Origin: an uncultured Archangium sp.
GTDB taxonomy: Bacteria; Myxococcota; Myxococcia; Myxococcales; Myxococcaceae
Assembly: GCA_903905455.1 (NCBI GenBank)
Contig: CAIVGN010000029.1
Location: 1 to 64,000, forward strand
DNA length: 64,000 nt
Direction of reading: 5' to 3'
Part shown: positions 4,269 through 40,559 of the stretch, piece by piece
Numbering within the stretch: the first letter of the stretch is position 1
Layout: each line of letters starts with the position of its first letter
Translations under genes and position numbers: made by a program
Notes under the pieces: model-generated
What the model saw: only the letters and a program-made list of their open reading frames with translations
Told to the model about the DNA's origin: nothing
Database searches by the model: none

Positions 4269-5008
4269 AGCGCCTGTCGGTGCTGCTCCTGCTCGCGGGG
4301 TGCACGAAGGAGCCCGAGGGCCCGGTGTGTGGGCTCCACGCGGCCTCCGAGCCGGTGCTGCTCCAGGGCAAGCGCGACGTGGCGTTGTCGGTGGGGGCGC
4401 GGTTGATGCCTTCCGATCGCATCGACGCCCAGGGCTTCGCGTTGCTCGAGTGCTTCGGCGGCGCGATCAGGGTGCTCGACGACGAGAAGGTCACCGTGGG
4501 CGAGCTGACGGAGTCGAAGATCGAGGCGACCACCATTCCCCGCTTCGTGCTCAAGGACGGCAAGCCGGTGAAGGCCACCATGCTCGCGCCCTCGATGCTG
4601 CCTCGCTACTCGGACAACCGCTTCACCCCGGCCAGCGCGTTCACCGCGGGCAGCGACCCGACCTCGGCCGACTACTTCAAGGCCTTCTTCACCCCCAACG
4701 GCATCGAGAACATGACCTCCGCGCCGCGGGAAGACGGGCCGGCGCGCCTGCCGCCTCCCTCGCAGCGGGTGAAGGTGTCGCGCATTCACGCCGGGCCGTT
4801 GGGGCAGGGCGGGGCGCGCCTCGAGGTCGAAGACGAGGTGGTCTTCGCCGAGACCGACGAGCTGACCACCGCCGCGCTCCCCGAGGGGCACACGTATGAG
4901 CTGGGCCGGACGGTGCGCCTGGTGCTCCCCGACGGCGCCGAGGCCACCCTGGTGCGCGACGGGGTGAAGACCGAGCTCGACGGCCCGATGGATCTGCGCC
5001 TTCGCTAG
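4265..5008 (+). CDS. Hypothetical lipoprotein, FecR-like region
   Basis: A 247-residue exported protein beginning [12 protein letters not shown], a short lipoprotein signal peptide with lipobox LAGC. The TTG at 4265 was chosen because GGAGGG at 4251-4256 sits eight bases upstream; a GTG at 4256 is the alternative. The start overlaps the mnmA stop by four bases. The middle ([17 protein letters not shown], then [13 protein letters not shown]) and the C-terminal [13 protein letters not shown] resemble FecR-type beta repeats that sense or bind at the envelope, but the match is weak. Probably anchored in the periplasm or outer membrane; function unknown. Confidence 0.8.
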
Positions 5009-5028
5009 TCTGTACTAGGGTTCGGCCG

Positions 5029-5646
5029 ATGCGGCTTTCCCGTACCGTCGTCCTGGGCTGCCTCGCCGGGCTGCTGGGTGCTTCCGTCGTCTCCTGTGGT
5101 CAACCGATGTCCGGGCCGAAGGCCTGCAGCGCCGCAACGTGTGAGGGGTGCTGCGCCGAGTCGGGCGACTGTCTCGCGGGCACCGCGGTCTTCGAGTGCG
5201 GCGCGGGCGGCGCGGCGTGTACGAGCTGCGCCTCCAACGAGGTCTGCCAGGCGGGCGCCTGCGGGCCGTTCGAAGGCGGTGACTACGACGCGAGCTTCCC
5301 CGCGCTGGCCGACGCCTCGGTGCGCCTCGACGCGGGCGTGTACCGGCCGCCGGACTCAGGCGTGGTGGTGCCCGACGCGGGCACGGTGGACGCCGGGCCC
5401 ATGAACGTCAGCTACTCCGCCCAGGTGCAGCCGATCTTCGACGCGCGCTGCATCGCCTGCCACCCGTGGAGCTACGACACGATCGTCAACGTCAACGCGC
5501 GCATCACCCCCGGCAACTTGAACGCCTCGGCCATCTACACGCGCACCCTGTCCGGAGACATGCCGCGCTTGGGCGGGGCGCCGCTGACCGGCACCCAGCA
5601 GGTGCTCCTGCGCGACTGGATCCTCAACGGGGCCCCACGAAATTGA
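5029..5646 (+). CDS. Lipoprotein with C-terminal c-type cytochrome motif
   Basis: 205 residues. A signal peptide ends in lipobox VVSC (Cys23). Next comes a cysteine-rich segment (residues 33-78, about ten Cys), then an Asp/Pro-rich linker with repeated PDAG and DAG. The C-terminal domain contains one haem-attachment CIACH (Cys141, Cys144, His145), with a possible axial Met in SGDMPRLGG. This layout is typical of myxobacterial surface cytochrome lipoproteins, where the C-terminal part resembles the small cytochrome module of planctomycete-type proteins. Electron-transfer partners are not encoded nearby. An inverted repeat CTAGT-CTGT-ACTAG lies just upstream at 5005-5018. Confidence 0.82.
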   Translation: MRLSRTVVLGCLAGLLGASVVSCGQPMSGPKACSAATCEGCCAESGDCLAGTAVFECGAGGAACTSCASNEVCQAGACGPFEGGDYDASFPALADASVRLDAGVYRPPDSGVVVPDAGTVDAGPMNVSYSAQVQPIFDARCIACHPWSYDTIVNVNARITPGNLNASAIYTRTLSGDMPRLGGAPLTGTQQVLLRDWILNGAPRN

Positions 5647-5670
5647 CGCCCTGATACAGCGCGCTACTTT
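5643..5670 (+). promoter_or_regulatory. Sigma-70-type promoter candidate for SPOR gene
   Basis: TTGACG (5643-5648), a 16-bp spacer and TACTTT (5665-5670). The -35 box overlaps the stop codon of the cytochrome lipoprotein. The predicted transcript starts near 5677, upstream of both possible starts of the next gene. Found by eye only. Confidence 0.45.
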
Positions 5671-5715
5671 CGTGATGCGCCCACCGCAGAGCTGATCGTG
5701 GGCGCCCAGGACCAC

Positions 5716-6498
5716 ATGCGCGACTCCCACCGCCTCAAAGAGAAGTACGAGCTCTCGCTCGACAACCGCCAGATCGTCACCATCACCGTCGCCTCGCTCG
5801 TGGTCCTGGGCGGCGTGTTCATGTTGGGGGTGGTCGTCGGCAAGAAGCTCTCGGCCGAGATGGTGGCCGGGCAGCAACAGCAGCCCACCGATCTCCTGGG
5901 GCAGCTCGATCGCAAGACCGACGCCCTCGAGAACGTGAAGGCCGACGCGGCGCTCACCTTCCAGGACGAGCTCACGCGCCAGGCGCCGACCCTCGTGGCC
6001 CAGGCCCCGGTCATCAAGCCCATCGAGGCTCCCAAGCCCGTCGCCGAGGCTCCCAAGCCCGTCGAGCCGCCGAAGCCCGTCGAGGTGGCCGTCGCCCCGA
6101 AGCCCGAGCCGGTGAAGCCGGAACCGGTCAAGCCCGCGCCGGAAGCGAAACTGCCCGAGACCCCGAAGTCGGAGCCCGTGGCCACGCGCACCGTCGACGG
6201 TGGTGGCCTCAAGGAAGCGTTCGGCAAGGTGCAGCGCGCGCCCGCCGAGGCCGCGGCAGATGGCTCGTGGACGCTGCAGCTCTCGGCCTACCAGGACAAG
6301 GCCGAGGCCGATCGCTTCGCCGCGGGCCTGCGCGACAAGGGCTACGCCCCATACATCATCGAGGCGGTCATCCCGGGAAAGGGCACCTGGTACCGCGTGC
6401 GCATGGGCCGCTTCGCGTCGAAGGACGCGGCCTCGCGCTACATGGTCGACTTCCGCCGCGAGACGGCGATGAACGCCATCGTCACCGCGGCGAACTGA
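5716..6498 (+). CDS. SPOR-domain inner-membrane protein
   Basis: 260 residues. A short cytoplasmic N-terminus (MRDSHRLKEKYELSLDNRQ) leads to one membrane helix at about 20-42, then a Pro/Lys/Glu-rich periplasmic linker (repeats of PKPV and EPVKP). The C-terminal SPOR domain begins at about residue 180 with WTLQLSAYQDKAEADRFAAG and ends with WYRVRMGRFASKDAA. SPOR domains bind denuded septal peptidoglycan, so a role in division or envelope remodelling is likely. An in-frame GTG at 5698 is an alternative start. The upstream promoter candidate at 5643-5670 suggests its own transcript. Confidence 0.9.
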   Translation: MRDSHRLKEKYELSLDNRQIVTITVASLVVLGGVFMLGVVVGKKLSAEMVAGQQQQPTDLLGQLDRKTDALENVKADAALTFQDELTRQAPTLVAQAPVIKPIEAPKPVAEAPKPVEPPKPVEVAVAPKPEPVKPEPVKPAPEAKLPETPKSEPVATRTVDGGGLKEAFGKVQRAPAEAAADGSWTLQLSAYQDKAEADRFAAGLRDKGYAPYIIEAVIPGKGTWYRVRMGRFASKDAASRYMVDFRRETAMNAIVTAAN

Positions 6499-27543: not shown

Positions 27544-28170
27544 GTGTCGGCCGCCCCTCTCGTCCTCGGAATTGCTGGTGGTACTGCCTCAGGCAAGACC
27601 ACCGTCGCGCGTAAGCTCCACGAAGCGTTCGCCTCGCGCGTCGCCTTCATCGACCAGGACTCGTACTACCGGCCCCTGGATCACCTCAGCCTCGAAGAGC
27701 GGCGCGAGGTGAACTTCGATCATCCCGACGCCTTCGACTCCGACCTGCTGGTCGAGCACGTCAAGGCGCTCAAGGCCGGCCACGCCATCGAGAAGCCGGT
27801 CTACGACTTCGTCAGCTCGACCCGGCAGCCGCGCACCGTCACCGTCAACCCGGCAGACCTCATCCTCATCGAGGGCATCCTGGTGATGCACATGGACCCG
27901 CTGCGGGCCCAGATGGACGTGAAGATCTTCGTGGAGACCGAAGACGACGTGCGGATCATTCGCCGCCTCACGCGCGACATCAAGGAGCGCGGCCGCGACT
28001 TCGACCACGTGATCCACCAGTACTTCGCGCACGTGCGGCCCATGCACATGGCCTTCGTCGAGCCCTCCAAGCGCTGGGCCGACATCATCGTGCCGCACGG
28101 CGGCAACAACGACACGGCCATCGACATGCTCGTCGGCGCCATCAAGGCGCGGCTCGTCAAGGCGAAGTGA
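27544..28170 (+). CDS. udk: Uridine kinase
   Basis: 208 residues, pyrimidine salvage enzyme phosphorylating uridine and cytidine. P-loop GGTASGKTT (12-20), QDSYYRPLDHLSLEERREV, NFDHPDAFDSDLL and IEGILVMHMDPLR match the family throughout. GTG start at 27544, 14 bp after the phosphodiesterase stop, so probably in the same transcript. The 3' end overlaps that of the convergent DUF4340 gene by 14 bp. Confidence 0.95.
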   Translation: MSAAPLVLGIAGGTASGKTTVARKLHEAFASRVAFIDQDSYYRPLDHLSLEERREVNFDHPDAFDSDLLVEHVKALKAGHAIEKPVYDFVSSTRQPRTVTVNPADLILIEGILVMHMDPLRAQMDVKIFVETEDDVRIIRRLTRDIKERGRDFDHVIHQYFAHVRPMHMAFVEPSKRWADIIVPHGGNNDTAIDMLVGAIKARLVKAK

Positions 28171-29638
28171 CGGCAGGCCCGGCATCGGCGCCGGGCTCGT
28201 CGAGCACGTCACCGAGCGCGAAGGGCAGCTCACCGAAGCGGCTGCCCTCTGACTCGAGCACCTGGTCGCGGGTGCCGCGCACGTAGAAGGTGACCGGCTT
28301 GCCGATGACCTCCTTGCCGATCACCAGGCGGGCCAGCTCCGCGCCGTCCTGGCCGTAGAGGGCGATGAACTTCGCCTTGGCGTCGAGCCCGTAGCGCCCC
28401 CAGTCCTTCGGCTTCTCCTCGCCGTTGACCAGGGCCTTGAAGCTGCCCAGCGTCCACAGCGCGCCGGTGACCTTGAAGACCTTCGCCTTGCCCGGCCGCG
28501 GGGCCACCACCCGCCAGGCATCGGCCGAGGCGTCCACGGAGTCCTTCTGCACCACCACCTCTTCGCCGGCCGGGTCGTGGAAGACGATCTTCGTCACCAG
28601 CTCGCGGCGGAAGCGGAGCACCGTCTTGTCGCGCAGGTCGCTCGGCGGGCGATCGTACTGGGTGACGTTCGAGCCCAGCTTCGCCAGCACCGCGCCGTCG
28701 TCGTCTTCGCGCAGGCCGTAGAACGCCTCTTCGCCGCCGTCGGGGGCCTGCCGGGTGACGCGCAGGTGCACCACCTTGTCGCCGGTCAGGGTCAGCCGGG
28801 CGTCGATCAGCGGCGCGTCGAAGCCGAGCGCCTTGCGCTGGGCCGGGGAGTCGTCGGGGAAGGCCTGGGCGCGCTCCTGGGAGGTGCCGGCGATGATCGC
28901 GCTGAGGGCCGCGCTGTCCGCGGGCTCGGCCGCGGGGCGCACCAGGTTCCACTGCTTGTCGTTGAGGCGCACCACCTCGTACTCGTTGGCGCCCGATTTC
29001 ACCGCCAGCCGCTGCACCTTCGCCTCGTCGACCGCGAAGGGGTTCTTGTCGCGCAGGTCGAAGAGCTGCTTGGCGAGCATGAAGCGCACGCCGCCCTCGG
29101 CGGTGAACACGGGCTTCTCGTCGTTGCGGCGCACGTAGACCGAGCCGTCGAAGGTGTTCTCGATGCCGCCGATGATCTTCACCGTGCGGTCCTGGGCCCC
29201 GACCTGGGCGGTGGCCACCACCACGAACGCCGGGGCGTCGAGGCCGTACTTCTGGAGCGTCGCCGCGTCGGGGTCTTCCTCGAGCGTGGCCTTGAACTTC
29301 GCCGTCTGGAGCTGGCTGGTGATGCCGTCGACCACCAGCTTGTCGGCCTTCGCCACGACCGGGCTGACGATCCACCACTCGCGGTTGCCGCGGCGCTCGA
29401 GCGTCGTGACGTGGCCGCCGGTGGTGACGGTGAGGTGGGTGAACTCCGCGGGGGGCGATCCGCCGTCGGCCTGCCGCTCGTCGAGCTTCTGGGGCGCGAA
29501 GAGCCGCAGCTCGTGCTCCACGCGGCGCTCGGAGGCCTGGTCTTTCTTGAAGACGCCGAAGTACGCGTAGCCGCCGAACGCGCCGGCGACGGCCAGCAGG
29601 CCCAGCATCATCAGCATCGTCTTCTGGCTCTGGTTCAT
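28157..29638 (-). CDS. DUF4340 membrane-anchored protein
   Basis: 493 residues. One N-terminal helix (about 8-29), then a large beta-rich periplasmic region with repeated DUF4340 features: REWWIVSPVVAKADKL, LQKYGLDAPAFVVV, RDKNPFAV, DWGRYGLDAKAK and LVIGKEVIGKPV. DUF4340 proteins accompany GldG-type ABC transporters in many Gram-negative bacteria. Last gene of the ABC operon, 4 bp after the GldG-like gene. Likely a component of the same envelope transporter. Confidence 0.9.
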   Translation of the reverse strand: MNQSQKTMLMMLGLLAVAGAFGGYAYFGVFKKDQASERRVEHELRLFAPQKLDERQADGGSPPAEFTHLTVTTGGHVTTLERRGNREWWIVSPVVAKADKLVVDGITSQLQTAKFKATLEEDPDAATLQKYGLDAPAFVVVATAQVGAQDRTVKIIGGIENTFDGSVYVRRNDEKPVFTAEGGVRFMLAKQLFDLRDKNPFAVDEAKVQRLAVKSGANEYEVVRLNDKQWNLVRPAAEPADSAALSAIIAGTSQERAQAFPDDSPAQRKALGFDAPLIDARLTLTGDKVVHLRVTRQAPDGGEEAFYGLREDDDGAVLAKLGSNVTQYDRPPSDLRDKTVLRFRRELVTKIVFHDPAGEEVVVQKDSVDASADAWRVVAPRPGKAKVFKVTGALWTLGSFKALVNGEEKPKDWGRYGLDAKAKFIALYGQDGAELARLVIGKEVIGKPVTFYVRGTRDQVLESEGSRFGELPFALGDVLDEPGADAGPAVTSP

Positions 29639-29642
29639 GGGG

Positions 29643-31214
29643 TCAGCGGGCGCGGCGCGTGAGCCAGATCGTCAGGCCCACGGAGAGCAACAGGGTGGGC
29701 AGCAACACCATCGACAGCAGGCGGATGGTGCTCAGCTTCTCGTTCGTGAGATCGAGCGTCGAGAGGTCGCGGTCCGGCGGGCGAATGGTGATCTTCTTGA
29801 GCTGCTGCGTGGTCCACGCGAACGCGTTCATCACCAGGTTGCGGTTGGTCTCGACCCCGAAGGCCGAGGTGAGCACGTCGCTGTCGCCGAAGATCACCAA
29901 CCGGGCCTCGTCGGCGCGGCGCGGGGTGGTGCCCGTGGTGGGGTGGCCCACCGCCACGGCGAGGATCAGCTGGCCGGTGCGCTCGTCGGGGTCGCGCTGG
30001 GGGTTCTCCGACAGCGAGTTCTCGACCCACGCGTAGGGCGAGGTGAGCACCAGCGGGGTGAGGGTCAGCTCGTCGAGCGTGCCGCTGCCCAGCCGGGTGA
30101 TGGCCCGGGCCGTGGGGAAGACCACGTTGGCCTGGGCGGCCATCAGCACCTTGGTCAGCTCGTGCTCGCCGATGAAGGGCGTGTAGACGATGTAGGGCTG
30201 ATCGGGGTTCACCTTGGCGTCGGCCACCAGGCCCGGCTCGATCTGAGCGCCGTACTTCGCCAGCAGCTCGCCCAGGTCCGGCTCGGTGCCGGCCTCGGCG
30301 AAGTAGAGCAGGCGGCCGCCCTGCGCGAGGTACACCTCGAGCATCTTCTTCTCCGAGTCGGAGAACTTGCCGCGCGCGCCGGCGATGACCACGGCCGAGG
30401 CGTCGGAGGGGATCTCGCCCTTCTCGAGCAGGTTGAGCGGCTGCGGCGCGTAGCCCTCGTCCTGGAGGATGCGCTTGACCGCCATCAGCGAGGCCGCCAT
30501 CGCCTCCTGGCTCTGCGCGGCGGGGTCCAGGGGCAGCTCGCCGTGGCCCACCACGAAGTAGAGCTTCTGGGTGCCCACGGCCTCGAGCTTGATCAGGCCG
30601 TTGGTCAACTCCTGCTCGGCGATCTGCGGGTTCCCCAGGCGCTGCAGGTTCAAGATGGTGTGCGTCTCGTTCTCGCCGCTGGAGATCAGCACCGCCGCCA
30701 GCTGACCTTCGCGGATCTGGTACTTGCCGGTGAGGTCGGGGCTCTTGCGCGGGTCCTTGAACTCCCAGGTGAACTTGTCGGTCACCTGGGCGTAGCGGCG
30801 GAAGAGCGCCTCGACCTGCTCCGGGGGGCTCTCCTTGACGAAGGCGATCACCCGCACCGGGTACTTGAGCTCCTGGAGCGTGTTGGTGGTCTGCGGCGAG
30901 AGCGAGAAGATCTTCTTCGCCGTGAGATCCCACGTGGGGGCGCGCTTCGCGGTGATGAAGTTCGCGGCCACCAGCACGCCGATGAACGCCACGCTCAGGC
31001 CCACCGACGACGAATAGAAGAACGCGGAGCGCGCCCAGCTGCCGGCGCGGTTGCCGCCGGTGGTGATCGCCCAGAACCCGATGCCCAGCACGCCCAGGCC
31101 GAGGGTCACGAAGAACGGCACCAGCGAATCCACGGTGAAGAAGCTGATCGGCGCGGTGAACAACACCAGCAGCAGGCCGACGCCACCACCGACACTTGCG
31201 AGGGTTTTCTTCAT
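29643..31214 (-). CDS. GldG-like ABC transporter auxiliary protein
   Basis: 523 residues. N-terminal helices (about 9-31, 33-50, 65-85), a periplasmic region with FSLSPQTTNTLQEL, VRVIAFVKESPPEQ and VVGHGELPLD, and a C-terminal helix (LLPTLLLSVGLTIWLTRRAR). It fits the GldG/YfiN-type subunit of ABC transporters. In Bacteroidetes GldG is needed for gliding; in proteobacteria the role is unclear. Sits between the permease and DUF4340 genes. Confidence 0.9.
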   Translation of the reverse strand: MKKTLASVGGGVGLLLVLFTAPISFFTVDSLVPFFVTLGLGVLGIGFWAITTGGNRAGSWARSAFFYSSSVGLSVAFIGVLVAANFITAKRAPTWDLTAKKIFSLSPQTTNTLQELKYPVRVIAFVKESPPEQVEALFRRYAQVTDKFTWEFKDPRKSPDLTGKYQIREGQLAAVLISSGENETHTILNLQRLGNPQIAEQELTNGLIKLEAVGTQKLYFVVGHGELPLDPAAQSQEAMAASLMAVKRILQDEGYAPQPLNLLEKGEIPSDASAVVIAGARGKFSDSEKKMLEVYLAQGGRLLYFAEAGTEPDLGELLAKYGAQIEPGLVADAKVNPDQPYIVYTPFIGEHELTKVLMAAQANVVFPTARAITRLGSGTLDELTLTPLVLTSPYAWVENSLSENPQRDPDERTGQLILAVAVGHPTTGTTPRRADEARLVIFGDSDVLTSAFGVETNRNLVMNAFAWTTQQLKKITIRPPDRDLSTLDLTNEKLSTIRLLSMVLLPTLLLSVGLTIWLTRRAR

Positions 31215-31221
31215 GGCGCCC

Positions 31222-32031
31222 TCAGGTCCAGCGCTGCGCTTCGATCGACCGGTGGGTCAACAGAAGGAAGAGGGCGATCACCGAGCCGAAGAACACCAGC
31301 GGCTTCACGTCCAGCACGCCCTTGACCAGGTTCGCCAGCTGGGTGTCGAAGGCGAGGTAGTTGAGCACCGAGCGGAACGGCTCCGGCGCGCCCGGTGCGA
31401 CCTGCTTGAGCAGCATCCACGCCAGGGCCACCGCGAAGCTGATGAGCGCCGCGACCATCTGCGACTCGGTCGTCGAGCTGATGAACATGCCGATGGCCAT
31501 GTTGGTCGCGCCCCACAGCAGCAGCGCGAAGTACCCCATCATCACCGTGCGCCACTCGAGCGCCGAGCCCGACTCGGAGCTCCCCAGCACCGAGAGCATG
31601 ATCGGGAAGACGATGGTCACGCCCAGCGTGCACACCACGATGCCCAGCGCGCCGAAGTACTTGCCCAGCACGATCTCGTAGGGGCGAATGGGCGTGGTCA
31701 TCAACAGCTCGAAGGTCTTGTTGCGCCGCTCTTCGGCGAACAGCCGCATCGACAGGAAGGGCGCGATGAACAGGGTCAGCACCAGCATCGTGCCCCACAG
31801 GTTCACCACCACGCCGTCGGTCAGGTTGCGGAAGTCCTGGTAGTCGGGCGGCAGCTGGCTCCAGCCCCCGGGGATGTCGCGCACCTCGTCATGTACCTGC
31901 TTGAAGCTCACCAGCAGGGCGATGAAGAAGATCGAACTCAGGAAGGACATCGCGGTGAACACCACCCAGGCCCACGGGGTGGTCAGGTACGAGGTCAGCT
32001 CTTTCTTCGTGATGGCGAAGATCGTTCTCAT
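31222..32031 (-). CDS. ABC transporter permease, GldF-like
   Basis: 269 residues with about six membrane helices. It begins MRTIFAITKKELTSYLTTPW, the usual start of ABC-2 permeases acting with GldA. The loop SMRLFAEERRNKTFELLMTTP is the conserved coupling segment with the ATPase. The gap to the ATPase gene is 3 bp and to the GldG gene 7 bp, so this is one operon. Confidence 0.92.
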   Translation of the reverse strand: MRTIFAITKKELTSYLTTPWAWVVFTAMSFLSSIFFIALLVSFKQVHDEVRDIPGGWSQLPPDYQDFRNLTDGVVVNLWGTMLVLTLFIAPFLSMRLFAEERRNKTFELLMTTPIRPYEIVLGKYFGALGIVVCTLGVTIVFPIMLSVLGSSESGSALEWRTVMMGYFALLLWGATNMAIGMFISSTTESQMVAALISFAVALAWMLLKQVAPGAPEPFRSVLNYLAFDTQLANLVKGVLDVKPLVFFGSVIALFLLLTHRSIEAQRWT

Positions 32032-32034
32032 GCG

Positions 32035-32751
32035 TCACTCCGCAGTCAGTTGGATGAACTTGTCTTCCAGGCCGGTCTCTTTGCCGCCGGTGATGTTCGC
32101 CATGGTGTCGTTGGCGACGATCTTCCCGCGGTGGATGATGAGGACCTTCTGACAGATGGCCTTCACCTCCGCGAGGATGTGCGTGGAGAGCACCACGGTG
32201 TGCTTGCCGGCGAGGCCCTTGATCAGCTCGAGCACCTCCCGGCGCTGGCGCGGGTCGAGGCCCTCGGTCGGCTCGTCGAGGATCAGCAGCGCCGGGTCAC
32301 CCAGCATGGCCTGCGCGATGCCCACGCGCTGCCGGTAGCCCTTCGACAGCACCCCCGTGAGGCGATCGAGCTCGGGGATGATGCCGGTGCCCTGGGCCAC
32401 GCGGTCGATCTCCGACTTCACCTTCGCCCGCGGCACGCCCTTCAACTCCGAGACGTACTTGAGGTACCCGCGCACCGTGAGCTCCGGGTACAGCGGCGGC
32501 GTCTCCGGCAGGTAGCCGATGCGACGCTTGGCCTCCAGCGGCTGCTCGAAGATGTCGAAGCCCGCCACGCGCGCCTTGCCGCTGGTGGCCGGCATGAAGC
32601 CCGTGAGGATCTTCATGGTCGTCGACTTGCCGGCGCCGTTGGGCCCCAGGAACCCGACGATCTCGCCGTCTTCGATCTTGAAGTTGAGCGCGTCGATGGC
32701 GACGCGGTCGCGGTACTGCTTCGTGAGGTTTTCGACCTCGATCATCGCCAT
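32035..32751 (-). CDS. ABC transporter ATP-binding protein, GldA-like
   Basis: 238 residues. Walker A GPNGAGKST (about 39-47), Q-loop YLPETPPLYPELT, signature LSKGYRQR, Walker B LLILDEPTEGLDP and the H-loop STHILAE are all intact. It starts MAMIEVENLTKQYRD; GGAGAA lies upstream on the minus strand. First gene of the four-gene transporter operon. The cargo is not known. Confidence 0.95.
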   Translation of the reverse strand: MAMIEVENLTKQYRDRVAIDALNFKIEDGEIVGFLGPNGAGKSTTMKILTGFMPATSGKARVAGFDIFEQPLEAKRRIGYLPETPPLYPELTVRGYLKYVSELKGVPRAKVKSEIDRVAQGTGIIPELDRLTGVLSKGYRQRVGIAQAMLGDPALLILDEPTEGLDPRQRREVLELIKGLAGKHTVVLSTHILAEVKAICQKVLIIHRGKIVANDTMANITGGKETGLEDKFIQLTAE

Positions 32752-32895
32752 GCGGTGTTCTCCGCGAGAGTGGGGTCGGTGAAGCGGCGCGGAATATAGG
32801 GACGAAGTCACAGGTGTCAACGCGAGTTCGGGAATGAATCCCATGGGTTGGCCGCTTTCCTGCAATGAGGTATTCGCACGCGGCCAAGGAGGCAC

Positions 32896-34050
32896 ATGTC
32901 CCGCATCGTCGTGCAGAAGTTCGGAGGTTCCTCGGTCGCGGATGCCGGGAAGATCCGCAAGGTCGCCGCCCGGGTGAAGGCCCGAAGGGACGAGGGCTGG
33001 CGCCTGGTGGTGGTGGTCTCCGCCATGGGCGACACCACCGACGAGCTGCTGGCCCTGGCCAAGCAGATCAGCGCCGACCCGCCCCGGCGCGAGCTCGACA
33101 TGTTGCTGACCTGTGGCGAACGCATCTCCATGGCGCTGCTGTCCATGGCGCTCCACGAACAGGGCGTCTCGGCGATCAGCTTCACCGGGAGCCAGAGCGG
33201 GATCATCACCGACTCCACCCACGCCCAGGCGCGCATCATCGAGGTCAAGCCCGCGCGCATCGAAGAGGAGCTGGCGAAGGACAAGGTGGTGATCGTCGCT
33301 GGGTACCAGGGCGTGTCGAAGAACCGCGAGGTGACGACGCTGGGGCGGGGTGGCTCGGACACGACGGCCGTCGCTCTCGCCGCGGCGCTCGGCGCTGATT
33401 GTGAGATCTACTCCGACGTCGACGGCATCTTCAGCGCCGACCCCCGCGTCGTGCCCAGCGCGGCGAAGCTCGAGTCACTGTCCTTCGACGAGATGCAGGA
33501 ACTCGCCGCCGCAGGCGCCAAGGTGCTCAACGCCCAGGCCGTCGAGTTCGCCCGCGAAAAGGGCATCGTCATCCACGCGAAGTCCACCCACGGCAGCGGC
33601 ACGGGCACGGCCATTCAAGCGTCCACCCCGTCGACGCGGGTCAAGGGCGTGACCTCCGAGAGCGACGTGTGGATCTTCGCCACCCACGGGGCGCCCGAGG
33701 CCTTGCTCGAGCTGCTCGACGCCCAGCAGGTGAAGGGGCGGAACCTGGTCTCCGACGCGCAGGGGCGCACCCTGGCGGTCGTCCCGATCCACGACGTGCA
33801 CGGGCCCGAGGCCCTGCGCGCGAAGTTGCCCGCCGAGGTGTCGTTGCTCGAAGACCACGGCACGGTGACCTGCGTGGGCACCGGGTTGAACGCCGACTGG
33901 TCGGTGTCGCGAAAGGCCCTCGCCGTCGCGAAGTCCATCGGCGCCGAGGTGACGGCGAGCTACGCCTCGGCGCTGCAGCTGACGTTGATCGTCAAGCGCG
34001 CCCACGTGAAGGCGCTCACCAGGTCGCTGCATGAAGCGCTGATCGGCTGA
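32896..34050 (+). CDS. lysC: Aspartate kinase
   Basis: 384 residues. Kinase motif [14 protein letters not shown] at the start, [12 protein letters not shown], then [21 protein letters not shown] and [15 protein letters not shown], followed by C-terminal ACT domains for amino-acid feedback. First step toward lysine, methionine, threonine and diaminopimelate. Strong Shine-Dalgarno AAGGAGG just before the ATG at 32896. Monocistronic; the divergent ABC operon is 144 bp away. No riboswitch was recognised in that gap. Confidence 0.95.
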
Positions 34051-34249: not shown

Positions 34250-37021
34250 TCAGGGCCAGTACGACTCGGCCTTCGCGTACGCCCCGAGGCCCACCAGCGA
34301 TCCCACCTGGCGCCCGGCGTAGTCGTCGGCGGCGATGTGAATGCCGCCCCAGAGGCGCGACTGGCCGGCCTGGTCGGCCGCGTCGAAGTAGGTGGCCCAC
34401 TGCAGCACCACCGGCTGGCTGGGCCCCAGCTCGAAGGTGAGCGCCGTGCCCGCGGCCGCCGGCAGCTCGGCCAGCCCACCGGGGAAGTACGGAGTGCCCG
34501 TGATGCGCGCCAGGACCTCGGCGGCCGCGCGGCTGAAGGTGCTGTGCCCCGAGATGAAGCCGGGGAACGCGGGCGTGACGAAGTCGCGCTTCTGGTACGG
34601 CACCCACTCCACGCCGCGCACCCAGCCGACGCCCGAGACCTGGCGCACGTCACCCGGCTCTCCCTTCCACGCGCGCACCACGACCTGGCCCACCGCGTTC
34701 TGGAACCCCGCGTGGCGCCCACCCGGGGTTGCCGTCTCGGCCGTCACCAGCTCGATCAGCCCCGGCACCAGGGGGAGCCCCTTCACGTTGTACGAGGGCT
34801 GCGCCGGGTCGCTCGACTGGCCGAGCGCCGCGCAGGTGCGAATCAGGGTGATCGGCCGCGAGCAGAGGAAGACGCGCTTGATCTCCCATGCCGCGATCGC
34901 CGCGTCGTGCAGCGCGCCGTTCATCGCCAGGTACGCGCGCACGTCCCACTCGAGCGGCGAGAGCTCCGGGCCCGTGCCGTTCCACTTGCGGGTGAACAAT
35001 GGGTGCTCGAAGGCCGCGTTGGCCAGGAGGTTCCAGTGGCCCGGCGGCGTCTCGGACTTCGGCCCATCGGCCCACACCTCGGCGAGCACGCGCCCGAAGT
35101 CACCCAGCGGGACGATCTGCGCGGCGTAGGGCTGGCCGGTGACGGGGTTGAGCGGGTGACCGGTGCCCGCGTTGCTGCCCAGCGGGTTGTTGCCGTACTT
35201 GCCGGGCGAGATGTCGGTCGGCTCGTCAGCGCTGACCGCCAGCTGTGACGATCGGCGGAGCACCTCGATCACGGCCGGCATGGTCGCCGGGGTGAGCATC
35301 GGCGGCGCGCCGGGATCGACGTAGACCGCGCCAGGCGCCGAGCGGGTGAGGGCGAAGGGCGTCACGTGGCCCCACTGCGCGCCGATGTACTTCTGCACCC
35401 CGGCGGCCAGGGGAATGCCGTTCTGGGTCGCGGCGATGGCGAGGTCGAGCTGCTGCCAGTGATCGATGTCCATCACCGGGGCCCCGGGCGTCTCCACCGA
35501 CAGCGGCGGGTTGACGGCCACGAAGGAGGTCGTGTCGGCGTAGTTGTGCTCTTCGTTCGCGCCGTCGTTCCACGTCGCGTCGATGATCTTCTGCGCGACC
35601 CGGTTGCCTACCGCGCGCGGGGAGTCCCCGGTCACAGTGGTGTCGTCGGGCGCGTAGCCCAGCTTCGTCATGAACGCGCGGAAGCAGGCCTGTGACGTGG
35701 GGCCGCCGATGGCCGTCGCGTAGCGGTGCGTGAGCAGGCGGTAGGCCGCGAAGCTGATCGCCTCCTGGCGCGCGGCCTCGAGCTCGGTTGCCGTGACGCG
35801 CTCGTTGTTGAAGACCCCCAGCGCGGTCGGGCTGTACGCAGCCCAAGCATCCCACATGGCGGCCGAGAGGTGAAACAAGCTGCGCGCGTGCACCGTGGGG
35901 CGCGGGAGATCTCGACGGATCGCCCCGAGAATCTGCTCGTCCCACCGCCGGGCGATCGACCGAGTCGGCGCGGGATCGATGGACGCCGCAGGACAGCTCA
36001 CCTCGGGAGGCAGGGGCTTGGCCGGCTGCTCGTAGGTGGGCGCCTGCTTCGGCGCGAGGCGCACGATCGCGCCGCCCGTCAGCGTGCTGAGCACCTTGCC
36101 TCCCACCGCCCACACGCCGCCCTTGGGGTCCACCCACACTGCGTGGAGCGACTCGACGTCGAGCGAGAGCCCGTGCGTGATCCTCGCCCAGCCCTTGCTC
36201 GAGCGCTGGAAGATGACCCCGGCCTCACCGACCGCGAAGGCCGAGTCCGCCCCGGTCGGGTCGGTCGCCACGCCCTGCAGCAGCCCGACGGAATCAGGTG
36301 AGACGTCCTTCCACTGCCGGCCGTCACCCTCGAGCAGCGCGCTGGCCACGCCGCCCCCGGAGATCAGCACCTGGCCCGCACGACCATGCACCGTGAAGAG
36401 GGTGTCGGTGCGGTTGACGTCAACCCGGTCCCACACCGCGCCGCTCTTGCGGAGCACGAGCCCATCACCGCCGACCACCCACACGTCGTCGCCGTTCCGG
36501 CCCCAGACCTTGAAGAGCCCGGGCGTCTCGCCGCTACGCAGCGGCACCGAGGACGGCAGCGGCACGTCGCTCCAGGCCGTGCCGTCGAAGTGCCAGATGA
36601 ACCCACGGCGCCCCGACGTCTCGCTGCCCACGGCGTACACGTCGGTCGGCGAGGCGCCCCACACCCCGAACACCGTCTGCCGCGCCAGGCCCGGCGTGAC
36701 GTGGCGCACGAAGTCGCTGCCGTTCCACTGCACGATGGTGCTGCGCGCGCCGGCGAAGAAGGCGGTGCCATCGGCGAAGCTGTGCGCCCACCACAGGTGT
36801 CCGTGCGTGCCCGTCTCGCGGCGCGTCCAGCTCGTGCCATCGAAGTGCAACACCAGCGGCCCGGTGCTCACGTCGGCACCCACCGCCCACACGTCGCTCT
36901 CCGAGCTGCCGCTGATCGACATCAGCGCCTCGTCGAGCCCGGTGCTGACCACCTGCCACTCGCGTGGTTCCACACAGCCAGCGAGCGCGACCAGCGCGCC
37001 AACGAGGACGACTCGGTTCAT
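34250..37021 (-). CDS. Beta-propeller/vanadium haloperoxidase fusion lipoprotein
   Basis: 923 residues. Signal peptide with lipobox LAGC. Residues about 20-340 hold repeated blades of the type SDVWAVG, PTDVYAVG and DDVWVVGGDG. The C-terminal half (about 385-923) is a vanadium-dependent haloperoxidase: KRVFLCSRP (Lys715, Arg722; Kx6RP), FISGHST (Ser824-His826) and SRLWGGIH (Arg889, His895; SRxxxGxH) form the complete vanadate-site set shared with PAP2 phosphatases. It likely oxidises halides with H2O2, or acts as a phosphatase, at the cell surface. The propeller may bind a substrate or partner. Start ATG at 37021. Last gene of a three-gene minus cluster. Confidence 0.88.
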   Translation of the reverse strand: MNRVVLVGALVALAGCVEPREWQVVSTGLDEALMSISGSSESDVWAVGADVSTGPLVLHFDGTSWTRRETGTHGHLWWAHSFADGTAFFAGARSTIVQWNGSDFVRHVTPGLARQTVFGVWGASPTDVYAVGSETSGRRGFIWHFDGTAWSDVPLPSSVPLRSGETPGLFKVWGRNGDDVWVVGGDGLVLRKSGAVWDRVDVNRTDTLFTVHGRAGQVLISGGGVASALLEGDGRQWKDVSPDSVGLLQGVATDPTGADSAFAVGEAGVIFQRSSKGWARITHGLSLDVESLHAVWVDPKGGVWAVGGKVLSTLTGGAIVRLAPKQAPTYEQPAKPLPPEVSCPAASIDPAPTRSIARRWDEQILGAIRRDLPRPTVHARSLFHLSAAMWDAWAAYSPTALGVFNNERVTATELEAARQEAISFAAYRLLTHRYATAIGGPTSQACFRAFMTKLGYAPDDTTVTGDSPRAVGNRVAQKIIDATWNDGANEEHNYADTTSFVAVNPPLSVETPGAPVMDIDHWQQLDLAIAATQNGIPLAAGVQKYIGAQWGHVTPFALTRSAPGAVYVDPGAPPMLTPATMPAVIEVLRRSSQLAVSADEPTDISPGKYGNNPLGSNAGTGHPLNPVTGQPYAAQIVPLGDFGRVLAEVWADGPKSETPPGHWNLLANAAFEHPLFTRKWNGTGPELSPLEWDVRAYLAMNGALHDAAIAAWEIKRVFLCSRPITLIRTCAALGQSSDPAQPSYNVKGLPLVPGLIELVTAETATPGGRHAGFQNAVGQVVVRAWKGEPGDVRQVSGVGWVRGVEWVPYQKRDFVTPAFPGFISGHSTFSRAAAEVLARITGTPYFPGGLAELPAAAGTALTFELGPSQPVVLQWATYFDAADQAGQSRLWGGIHIAADDYAGRQVGSLVGLGAYAKAESYWP

Positions 37022-37025
37022 CGGG

Positions 37026-37568
37026 TTACCCCTTGCAGATGGATTCGCAGAACGCCTGGTTGGAGGCCGGGCACAACAACCGGGTCTTCGCCGTCGCACG
37101 CGTGAGCAGCACGCCGTTGCCCCGGATGACGGTGATCTCGAAGGTGAGGTCTTCCCCCGCGACGCTCACGCCCACCGGGGTCGGGCACATGAAGATCGTG
37201 ACCGGCTCTTCGGTGGTCCACGAGCCACCGTCGGCGGCGATGTCGAAGGCGCGGCTCCCGCGGCTGACCAGCACGCCATCGCGAGACCTGCGCACCCGGT
37301 GCTCGACGGTCGCGCCTGCCTGCGTGTGCCCGGTGATGCGGTACATCACGGGCACGTGGAAGCCGCCCTGGGCGCCGGGGTGAAGCTCCATCGACGCGGG
37401 CATCGGCTCAAAGGTGGGCACCAGGTCCGACACTTGCGTGCCCACCTCCATGCTCCCGTCAGCCCACAGCGGATCGCCGCTGATGCCCGAGTCGGCCTCC
37501 TCTTCGGGAGGGGGCCGTTCGGGGCACGCGCACAACACCAACGCGCTGACGAGAAGCAACGAGCGCAT
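37026..37568 (-). CDS. Hypothetical lipoprotein
   Basis: 180 residues. Signal peptide MRSLLLVSALVLCAC, a Pro/Glu-rich linker (PERPPPEEEADSG), then a beta-rich domain with a C-terminal Cys cluster (LLCPASNQAFCESICKG) that may form disulfides. No family recognised. Four-base gaps separate it from the haloperoxidase fusion downstream and the DUF2330 gene upstream, so it is probably co-transcribed and surface-located like them. Confidence 0.8.
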   Translation of the reverse strand: MRSLLLVSALVLCACPERPPPEEEADSGISGDPLWADGSMEVGTQVSDLVPTFEPMPASMELHPGAQGGFHVPVMYRITGHTQAGATVEHRVRRSRDGVLVSRGSRAFDIAADGGSWTTEEPVTIFMCPTPVGVSVAGEDLTFEITVIRGNGVLLTRATAKTRLLCPASNQAFCESICKG

Positions 37569-37572
37569 GTCT

Positions 37573-39231
37573 TCAGCTCTGGCGACGACGACGCAGCACC
37601 GCGACGAGCGCGACCAGCCCCAGGCCGAAGGGCTCGACCACCGTGCAACTGCACCCGGCGGCCTTGGCGCCGATGGCGACCTTGTTGTCGGTCAACACCT
37701 GGGGCGCGCCCTCTTCGGACAACGTCTCGATGCGCAGCGCGGCCGGCACCCCGGACAACTGGGGGGAGGTGCTGGCGTTGCTCAACTGGAAGTTCCAACC
37801 CTGCTCGGTGGTCAGCGTCGCCGGCGATGTGGACGAGTCACCGAAGAGCCCGCATTGAATGACCAGGTTGGCGGTGTGATCGCGGGAGACGTCGGGCAGC
37901 GAGGGGTTGAAGCTGAACACCGGGTCGCGGGTCATGTCCTCGGGCGAGAGCGTCGTGTAGAGCCGGGTGAGGGTGGGGAACTTGCGGAACAGGCCGCCCG
38001 CCTCGAGCGCCGGCTGCACGACCTTCTCGTTGATCTGCGCGGCGAGCGCCGGGGCATCGAAGGCCGGGTTCCAGCCCACGAACTGCTCGGGGTGGTCGGT
38101 GCGGTAGCTGCCGAGGAAGAAGCGAAGGTTCTGCAGGAAGTTGTCCTCGCTCACGTTGAGGCCCGCGGGCATGGGCAGCGCGGTGAGCACCAGGCCGCGC
38201 AGCAGGGGCGTCAGCGTGGGGGCGAAGAAGGTGTTGGGGCTCTGCGTGGCGGTGTAGCCGTTGTTGAAGAGGTACTCGACGAAGTCCACCGGGTCGGTGA
38301 GCCGTGCGAGATCGCTGATGCGGCCGAAGCGCCCGGCGCGGTCGAGCTGGTCGACCATGATGCCGCTGGTGCCCGCGTACTCGGTCGCGAAGGCGTGCTT
38401 CTCGGGCGCCTCGGAGACCGCGCGGATGATCACGTCGTTGTAGTTCTTCGCCTGGTTGAGCCAGTCGATCTGCCCGTCGTTGATCACCACGTGGTTGTAG
38501 TTGCGCGGGATGGCCCGGCCTGCGCCGAGCATCCACACCTGCACGCCCATGTTCGGCGTCGCGGCGACGCTGGTGAGGATGATGGGGATCATCGGGAGAT
38601 CCGACGGGTACTGGAGCACCACCGGCTGGATGTCACCCGACGACTTGCCGCTCTTGAGCTTCAGCGCGAGGAAATACCCGCCGGGGCGGATGTAGGGGCC
38701 CACCGTGGCGTCCGTGCCCGTAGGGATGAAGTAGTGGTTGTCGGTCAGCCACGCGAACATCGCGTCCTTCGACTCCGCGTGGAGCACCGCGTAGTCGTAG
38801 GGCCCGATCGACGACTCGGTCACCAGCGGCGACCCTGAGCTACCGCCAGAGTCGTTGGCGAAGCCAGCCGAGGCCGTGGGCGCCCCGAAGTTCCGTGCCG
38901 AGCAGGCCCCGTTCGTGGTGGTGGTCAGGAAATAGCGGGGCTGGGTGGTGTTGATGAGCTGGGTGAAGAGCTCCTCGGTCCCCAGCTTGAGCACCGGCAC
39001 CGACGGCAGCGGGAGCAGCCACCCGAAGTCCTTCGCGTCACCCGCGTACTGGATCTGAATGTGCGCGGTGACCACGCCATTCTCGACCGCGAACAGGATG
39101 CGCTCGCCGGCCTGCACGATGGGCACGGTGGGGTCGGGCGGCGCGAAACACCCGCAGGCTTCCGCCTGGCGGCTGGCGAGGGCGACTCCGAGCGTCAGGA
39201 CGAGCGCGGCACTGCTGATTCGGCTGAACAT
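37573..39231 (-). CDS. DUF2330 protein with MYXO-CTERM-like tail
   Basis: 552 residues. Signal peptide ending at about residue 22 (ASRQAEA), then ACGCFAPPDPTVPIVQAGERI, the hallmark of DUF2330. Matching blocks include DFGWLLPLPSVP, YDYAVLHAESKDA and GYFLALKLKSGK. The C-terminus reads AAGCSCTVVEP, a hydrophobic helix, then RRRRQS, which fits a MYXO-CTERM sorting signal for cell-surface anchoring. Function of DUF2330 is unknown. First gene of the cluster leading to the haloperoxidase fusion. Confidence 0.92.
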   Translation of the reverse strand: MFSRISSAALVLTLGVALASRQAEACGCFAPPDPTVPIVQAGERILFAVENGVVTAHIQIQYAGDAKDFGWLLPLPSVPVLKLGTEELFTQLINTTQPRYFLTTTTNGACSARNFGAPTASAGFANDSGGSSGSPLVTESSIGPYDYAVLHAESKDAMFAWLTDNHYFIPTGTDATVGPYIRPGGYFLALKLKSGKSSGDIQPVVLQYPSDLPMIPIILTSVAATPNMGVQVWMLGAGRAIPRNYNHVVINDGQIDWLNQAKNYNDVIIRAVSEAPEKHAFATEYAGTSGIMVDQLDRAGRFGRISDLARLTDPVDFVEYLFNNGYTATQSPNTFFAPTLTPLLRGLVLTALPMPAGLNVSEDNFLQNLRFFLGSYRTDHPEQFVGWNPAFDAPALAAQINEKVVQPALEAGGLFRKFPTLTRLYTTLSPEDMTRDPVFSFNPSLPDVSRDHTANLVIQCGLFGDSSTSPATLTTEQGWNFQLSNASTSPQLSGVPAALRIETLSEEGAPQVLTDNKVAIGAKAAGCSCTVVEPFGLGLVALVAVLRRRRQS

Positions 39232-39368: not shown

Positions 39369-40508
39369 TCAGCCGCCCAGCAGCGCCGCGCGCAGGGCCC
39401 GCCCCGCCGGGACCGTGCCCGCACCCCGGGAGAGCACCGCGAGCTTGTCGCCCAGGGTCAGCGTGCCTGCGTAGAACCGGGCGATCGTCTCTTCTTCGTG
39501 GCCATAGAACGAGTCGAAGATCTTCACCCGCTCGTTGGGCCGCGCCCCGCGGAAGAGCATGCGATTGAGGAGGCGGAAGAAGCGATGCTGGGCCCAGTGG
39601 CGTCGGGTGTGCGCCTGGAGCCAGGCGGTGATCGGCGCGGCGCTCAGATCCGGCAGCTTGGGGATCGCGTCGGCCACGTCGGCGGCCATGGGCAACGAGT
39701 ACCCGGTGGTGGCGTGAAAGAGCCCGGCCGCGACGCCGATCACCGGGCGATCGAGCACCGGGGCCTCACCCGAGAGCGGAATGGGCAGCGCGGCGAACTC
39801 CTCGCGGTACACCTTCGCCACGCGCAGGTTCTTGTCCGCCAGGTACTTCGTGATCCGCTCCCGCATCGCCGGCAGGTCGAGCGTGGCGTCGTCGGAATAC
39901 GAGGTGTCCTCCACCAGCACCCGGCGCTCGTCCCACGGGAGCATGTAGACGAAGCGGAACGCACCGAACTGCTCGACGCGGCCGTCCATCAACAGCGGCA
40001 CCTCGAGCGTGTGGGGCGACTCGAGCTCGAGGTCGAGGCCGAGGAACTTCTGGTACCCGCAGGGCCAGGCCGGGGCCGTCGAAAACCCCCGCCCGTCGAT
40101 GACCGCCTTCGCCTCCACCACCTCACCTGAGGTCAGCGTGACCCGCGTGGCTGTGACTTCTTTCACCGTGGCGCGCAGCCTCACGCGATCCTTGAGCTGC
40201 TCCATCAGCTTCCAGTGGAAGTCTTCGCTCTTGATCGAGTGGTAGCCCCCGCCGATGCGCCGCGGCTCGCCTGAGAAGGCCACGTCGTGGGAGGGCCAGG
40301 ACTTCGAGCAGAGCACCCACAACCACTCGAGCTGCGCCCGGGTCACGTCAGTTCCGTGGAAGCTCCACGTGTGATTTCCGCCCAGCACGGAACCGGCCTC
40401 GAGAATCACAAAAGAAATGTCAGGCCGGGTCATCACCAGGCGCCAGGCGAGGAGGCCATTGGCGAGTCCGCCACCGACGAGCACGAGGTCGAGCACGGGC
40501 GGGCTCAT
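39369..40508 (-). CDS. crtY: Lycopene cyclase CrtY
   Basis: 379 residues, within the usual CrtY length. The FAD-binding start LDLVLVGGGLANGLLAWRL is typical, followed by ILEAGSVLGGNHTWSFH, GGYHSIKSEDFHWKLME, VIDGRGF and FRFVYMLPWDERRVLVEDT. It converts the linear ends of lycopene to beta-ionone rings at the membrane. ATG at 40508 chosen because the family begins a few residues before the FAD motif; an in-frame ATG at 40559 is possible. No other carotenoid gene is in the window. Divergent from a LuxR-type regulator. Confidence 0.92.
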   Translation of the reverse strand: MSPPVLDLVLVGGGLANGLLAWRLVMTRPDISFVILEAGSVLGGNHTWSFHGTDVTRAQLEWLWVLCSKSWPSHDVAFSGEPRRIGGGYHSIKSEDFHWKLMEQLKDRVRLRATVKEVTATRVTLTSGEVVEAKAVIDGRGFSTAPAWPCGYQKFLGLDLELESPHTLEVPLLMDGRVEQFGAFRFVYMLPWDERRVLVEDTSYSDDATLDLPAMRERITKYLADKNLRVAKVYREEFAALPIPLSGEAPVLDRPVIGVAAGLFHATTGYSLPMAADVADAIPKLPDLSAAPITAWLQAHTRRHWAQHRFFRLLNRMLFRGARPNERVKIFDSFYGHEEETIARFYAGTLTLGDKLAVLSRGAGTVPAGRALRAALLGG

Positions 40509-40559
40509 AGCAGCGAGGGCTCCATGCGGCTGATGTTCCTCGACATGAACCGTCTTCAT

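Follow-up and report, generated by a model that had tools for sequence, protein, structure and literature searches.

A probable surface lipoprotein of Myxococcota that joins a seven-bladed beta-propeller to a predicted vanadium haloperoxidase, and propeller partners of the same enzyme branch in other phyla

In a 64,000-nucleotide stretch of contig CAIVGN010000029.1 from an uncultured Archangium sp. (the window), the gene at 34250–37021 on the minus strand encodes a 923-residue protein with the N-terminus MNRVVLVGALVALAGC, in which a lipoprotein signal peptide is followed by a seven-bladed beta-propeller and a vanadium-haloperoxidase (VHPO) domain. We think it probable that this fusion is an exported, lipid-anchored, hypohalite-producing vanadium haloperoxidase of a distinct bacterial branch, with the propeller serving as a docking module. 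The original prediction, made from the sequence of the window, described N-terminal SDVWAVG-type blades and a C-terminal haloperoxidase on a lipoprotein, and this layout was confirmed by the translation, by a predicted structure (pLDDT 88.8, pTM 0.84; input, an alignment of 31 fusions) and by fold matches. The signal peptide (36974–37021, minus strand), identified from the sequence, contains the lipobox LAGC with Cys16 as the would-be acylated cysteine, and a lipobox is present in at least 25 of the 31 aligned fusions; the protein is thus probably a cell-surface lipoprotein, as originally proposed. Scans for a sigma-70 promoter and a terminator returned nothing above chance.

The propeller half, with its DVWAVG-type blades, covers residues 21–325 (36047–36961, minus strand) and is supported by the model, fold matches and sequence matches to Ycf48-like propellers. 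Structure prediction of the N-terminal part, which had been proposed as a check of the original prediction, placed seven blades, each built of strands, within residues 21–323, the ring being closed by the first strand. Foldseek and VIA-align matched residues 17–325 to seven-bladed propellers with Z about 31. A pattern coding for DVWAVG, allowing 0–1 mismatch, occurs three times in the window, all inside the fusion gene, compared to 0.03 expected in shuffles. The closest named counterparts by sequence profile are Ycf48-like propellers (5oj3, 5ojp, 2xbg; E 2e-5), which share the seven-bladed fold; Ycf48, however, is a photosystem II assembly factor without an attached enzyme, whereas the propeller in the window is fused to one. 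No catalytic family was detected in the propeller half, and Pfam found neither FG-GAP_3 nor UnbV_ASPIC domains in the protein.

The haloperoxidase half (residues 353–923; 34253–35965, minus strand) was delimited by Pfam, the model, and fold and profile matches. A helical domain spans residues 356–919 of the predicted model, and Pfam identified DUF6851 at residues 386–511 (E 9e-20); PAP2 and VCPO_2nd scored below their Pfam cut-offs in this protein (for PAP2, 17.7 bits vs. 27.2), a sub-threshold score that is compatible with phosphatase activity. By Foldseek and VIA-align, the enzyme half matched NapH1, XhnO11 and NapH3 with Z of 32.4–32.9 over 421–430 residues at 23–24% identity, and the Foldseek matches also included fungal chloroperoxidase (CPO) and the Zobellia iodoperoxidase (VIPO).

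Each of the three vanadate-site motifs is intact, as originally claimed, with every vanadate-site residue present and conserved in 85 branch members drawn from many phyla. Motif 1, WEIK(x6)RP (WEIKRVFLCSRP, residues 712–723; 34853–34888, minus strand), supplies the predicted vanadate ligands K715 and R722; motif 2, FPGFISGH (residues 819–826; 34544–34567, minus strand), supplies S824, G825 and the predicted acid-base H826; and motif 3, SRLWGGIHIAAD (residues 888–899; 34325–34360, minus strand), supplies R889 and the predicted axial vanadate ligand H895. W712, K715, R722, P723, F819, S824, H826, R889, H895 and D899 are invariant (85/85), G825 is identical in 84 of the 85, and a further signature of the clade, WADGPxSETPPGHW (residues 650–663; 35033–35074, minus strand), is nearly invariant in the same set. 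Counting against a VHPO reading, the spacing of about 100 residues between motifs 1 and 2 is longer than in the usual signature. In CPO, vanadate is held by Lys353, Arg360, Ser402, Gly403 and Arg490, with His496 as axial ligand (PMC9144378, PMC10278073), and Trp350 and Phe397 are putative halide-site residues (PMC9144378). W712 aligned to a Trp in all VHPO structures printed in the alignments and F819 to the Phe of the Zobellia VIPO, making W712 a candidate equivalent of CPO Trp350 and F819 a candidate equivalent of Phe397; the latter equivalence was drawn from motif register because the residue alignment to CPO scored the motif 1 stretch only, motifs 2 and 3 lying outside it. Every sequence and fold feature that could be tested places the enzyme half in the VHPO family, and its activity is predicted from these features.

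Among solved relatives, NapH1 (a Streptomyces vanadium chloroperoxidase, 3w35/3w36) matched the entire enzyme half, residues 353–923 (3w35: Z 32.9, 430 residues aligned), as did XhnO11 (9l8x; Z 32.6), and both share the motif 1 and motif 3 residues with the window protein; they differ in having no propeller in their solved chains and in having Ser in place of the SGH His. NapH1 is a biosynthetic enzyme that forms a dimer. NapH3 shares the fold (Z 32.4) but has SGF in place of SGH, and it catalyses a rearrangement, a non-halogenating chemistry on this fold. More broadly, SGH is kept in the window protein and the Zobellia VIPO, with SGS, SGF or SAS in NapH1, XhnO11, NapH3 and 9ptr. The Zobellia enzyme (4cit/4usz) shares TPxFPxxxSGH, SRxxGGIH, the acid-base His and the Phe before the SGH His, but it is far shorter, lacks a propeller and is about 17% identical to the window protein (Foldseek). 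The Curvularia inaequalis chloroperoxidase (1vnc, 1idq) has the VHPO fold (Foldseek E about 1e-10) and a profile-matched motif 1 stretch, and its HOX-releasing chemistry is the model for the activity that we propose here; it is about 15% identical and has neither propeller nor lipobox.

Searches with the enzyme half (E < 1e-60) found it in 28 of 195 genomes sampled across Myxococcota, a patchy distribution; among these 28, two (G129 and G008) lack the propeller and contig ends truncate a few. The 33 sampled fusions, from Myxococcota only and with complete genomes included, form one clade in the VHPO tree (33/33, SH-aLRT 99), requiring one change compared to a shuffled mean of 26.6, and named relatives include Myxococcus, Corallococcus, Pyxidicoccus, Polyangiaceae and Kofleriaceae. 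Sister to this clade are two propeller-less Myxococcota lipoproteins. The fused propellers likewise form one clade against eight standalone propellers (support 92), and distances in one half correlate with those in the other (r 0.85, 0/2000 permutations). As both halves are monophyletic and co-diverge, there was one fusion event in Myxococcota followed by joint descent of the halves, and the one-clade trees for both halves rule out repeated independent fusions within the phylum. An assembly or annotation artefact was likewise ruled out, since complete genomes, including those on a single contig, carry the fusion in one open frame. Because the fusion is the standard architecture in Myxococcota, the propeller is a normal family element inside this clade, the outcome that the original prediction had named as counting against it. 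Its statement that usual vanadium haloperoxidases have no such propeller holds for the structurally characterised enzymes matched here, but fails within the enzyme's own branch, in which a propeller partner is common. One genome (G135) holds two propeller-VHPO fusions (G135:C386 and G135:C272), which are 61% and 54% identical to the protein of the window. The genome of the window also encodes, on contig C107 (L122, about 4751–6064, minus strand), a second VHPO-like protein of more usual type, a propeller-less 495-residue open frame with 28% identity to the enzyme half.

The same enzyme branch occurs well beyond Myxococcota: of the 334 related loci in the genome collection, the best 80 also included loci from Chloroflexota, Actinomycetota, Verrucomicrobiota, Planctomycetota, Acidobacteriota and Pseudomonadota, their enzymes being about 50–60% identical over the enzyme half. 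Pfam scans of four such loci revealed FG-GAP_3 repeats and UnbV_ASPIC ahead of the VHPO in a fused protein. These FG-GAP/ASPIC-UnbV (CRTAC1-like) proteins belong to another repeat family than the propeller in the window, and in other phyla they are the propeller partner of the same VHPO branch. A profile search built from the four fused proteins identified seven intact fused cases, plus a frameshifted one (L099), and an FG-GAP/ASPIC gene adjoining the VHPO gene, whether downstream, upstream or divergent, at 26 loci; Pfam confirmed FG-GAP_3 and UnbV_ASPIC in nine of the neighbouring proteins. On the VHPO tree the fused FG-GAP/ASPIC state needs four separate changes. We compared contig coordinates of the VHPO, its neighbour and the ASPIC matches in 17 genomes with the adjacent arrangement (L063, L067, L068, L069, L072, L073, L075, L079, L083, L085, L088, L090, L091, L105, L109, L113 and L115): the neighbour carries ASPIC in 17/17, and it is the sole ASPIC gene of the genome in 16/17. 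With one ASPIC gene among some 2000–4000 genes, we estimate chance adjacency to be of the order of 0.1% per genome. Such near single-copy ASPIC genes beside a VHPO suggest a function for at least this ASPIC subgroup. One record titled as a Klebsiella pneumoniae MAG (L062) has a VHPO with a divergent FG-GAP/ASPIC neighbour, on a contig that is almost certainly mislabelled or mis-binned.

In 19 tree rows, approximately one in three of the loci outside Myxococcota, no propeller lies nearby (a few of these rows are at the end of a contig), and a propeller is therefore not universally needed. By eye, two propeller-less Planctomycetota relatives of the VHPO (L080 and L081) have dockerin-like repeat tails and two others (L097 and L103) PEP-CTERM-like ends, tails that point to a probably extracellular enzyme. 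Propeller partnership is nevertheless common in this VHPO branch, with Myxococcota using a different propeller in cis, and the pairing is a recurrent design, not a one-off oddity, that is apparently undescribed: in the open-access literature that we searched, which misses most subscription papers, no paper had haloperoxidase together with UnbV or FG-GAP, CRTAC1 together with vanadium, or vanadium-dependent haloperoxidase together with beta-propeller, an absence that is no proof of novelty.

Based on these matches, we propose that the protein would be exported by Sec, lipidated at Cys16 and displayed at the outer membrane, as its lipobox suggests, and that vanadate would be held by the residues noted above (K715, R722, S824, G825 and R889, with H895 axial). 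Hydrogen peroxide and halide would then yield hypohalous acid with H826 as the acid-base, a role we assign to this His because it is conserved, is kept in fungal CPO and the Zobellia VIPO, and is lost in NapH-type enzymes. The propeller would most likely be a docking module that keeps the enzyme attached to a surface polymer or protein, or would partly cover the active-site entrance, thereby doing the job that a separate FG-GAP/ASPIC protein may do in other phyla; we infer a docking or gating role because the enzyme branch recurs with unrelated propeller types. One recent study has linked a more shielded cofactor to stronger and more specific chlorination, the tunnel being formed by loops from neighbouring subunits (PMC11871015); a fused propeller could play this shielding part. 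A wider and more tentative idea, which we would not yet expect to hold, is that of a multi-phylum two-part surface system in which a hypohalite-producing VHPO is accompanied by a propeller that sets the substrate or shields the site, an unrelated propeller having been swapped in and fused in Myxococcota. Known vanadium haloperoxidases come from algae, fungi and a small number of natural-product pathways, and there is debate about how they direct their reactive product. This large branch of bacterial enzymes, with its own dedicated propeller either fused or encoded by the next gene, offers a natural and testable case of targeting or gating; the pairing suggests a role for an FG-GAP/ASPIC subgroup otherwise without one, and the branch indicates that environmental bacteria may be a widespread source of surface halogenation that has gone unstudied.

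The original prediction left the activity as that of an oxidant or a phosphatase; residue conservation favours the oxidant, and the phosphatase keeps its standing as the main rival because the site is common to both kinds of enzyme. None of the results favours or speaks against the chemical attack or defence that the original prediction had tentatively suggested. On the phosphatase reading the enzyme half would be an acid phosphatase or phosphotransferase at the cell surface, within the PAP2/haloperoxidase superfamily, and its vanadate site would bind phosphate; we regard this as unlikely. All vanadate ligands are indeed common to bacterial acid phosphatases, there is a weak PAP2 profile score, and apo-chloroperoxidase can dephosphorylate (3bb0 title; PMC9144378), but the PAP2 score falls short of its cut-off, every one of the nearest solved relatives belongs to the haloperoxidase family, the protein has the N-terminal half of a VHPO (DUF6851), and W712 and F819 are invariant. 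We consider it very unlikely that the protein is a vanadate enzyme, or a cofactor-free descendant of one, with non-halide chemistry (sulfoxidation or a rearrangement like that of NapH3) on a surface substrate presented by the propeller: the NapH3 precedent and the strict conservation of WADGPxSETPPGHW outside the site, which suggests a specific job, would fit this, but NapH3 has lost the SGH His that all 85 branch members keep.

It is possible, though on the whole doubtful, that the propeller is no more than a surface anchor of a kind general in Myxococcota and does not affect catalysis. The genome of the window has 11 stretches matching this propeller type, involving several other proteins, and standalone versions exist; against this, the fused propellers are a conserved clade of their own that co-diverges with the enzyme, and in other phyla the same enzyme branch has unrelated propellers as partners. 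The original prediction also placed the fusion in a system with its neighbours, which it described correctly: 4 bp upstream is a small lipoprotein of no known family (37026–37568, minus strand), with a conserved CPTPVG and three C-terminal cysteines, and before it a DUF2330 protein (37573–39231, minus strand), the first gene of a presumed three-gene operon with 4-bp gaps, whose MYXO-CTERM-like tail matches TIGR03901 at the right place yet below the cut-off (15.1 bits vs. 20). We find it rather unlikely that these three work as a single surface machine and that the enzyme depends on both neighbours. The gaps speak for such a machine, as does the same gene order at L036–L039 (judged by length and identity, the loci of G133, G131, G136 and G132, four genomes of one related genus), but the pair lies upstream of the fusion only there and in the window genome, being absent beside the same-genus fusion in G050 and beside most other fusions, complete genomes included, and G052 and G049 have the pair with no fusion behind it. 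As the pair is absent beside most fusions and present without one, we concluded that the DUF2330 operon is a local feature that may reflect a shared surface theme, and is not a requirement.

The structure prediction of the DUF2330 protein (pLDDT 66.6) was too weak to interpret, and DUF2330 is mentioned in no paper of the open-access literature searched. When the neighbours at 30 loci were clustered, none proved convincingly shared, the large clusters being frames that overlap the fusion gene. Four further genes of the window, for a lycopene-cyclase-like protein, a LuxR-type regulator, an HtrA-like protease and an aspartate kinase, had no matches near the relatives. At L116 (G051:C26, 2038–7826), two DUF2330 genes, a small lipoprotein and a standalone propeller lipoprotein follow the order of the window, the propeller lipoprotein having a Cys-rich tail and no haloperoxidase domain. 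In the window itself, the lycopene-cyclase-like gene (39369–40559, minus strand) immediately precedes the DUF2330 gene in the same orientation, with a gap of 137 bp. At 28157–33222 (minus strand) an ABC transporter ATPase, a permease, a large GldG-like protein and a DUF4340-like protein are encoded in a row that, judged by eye from the sequence, resembles gliding-associated ABC clusters.
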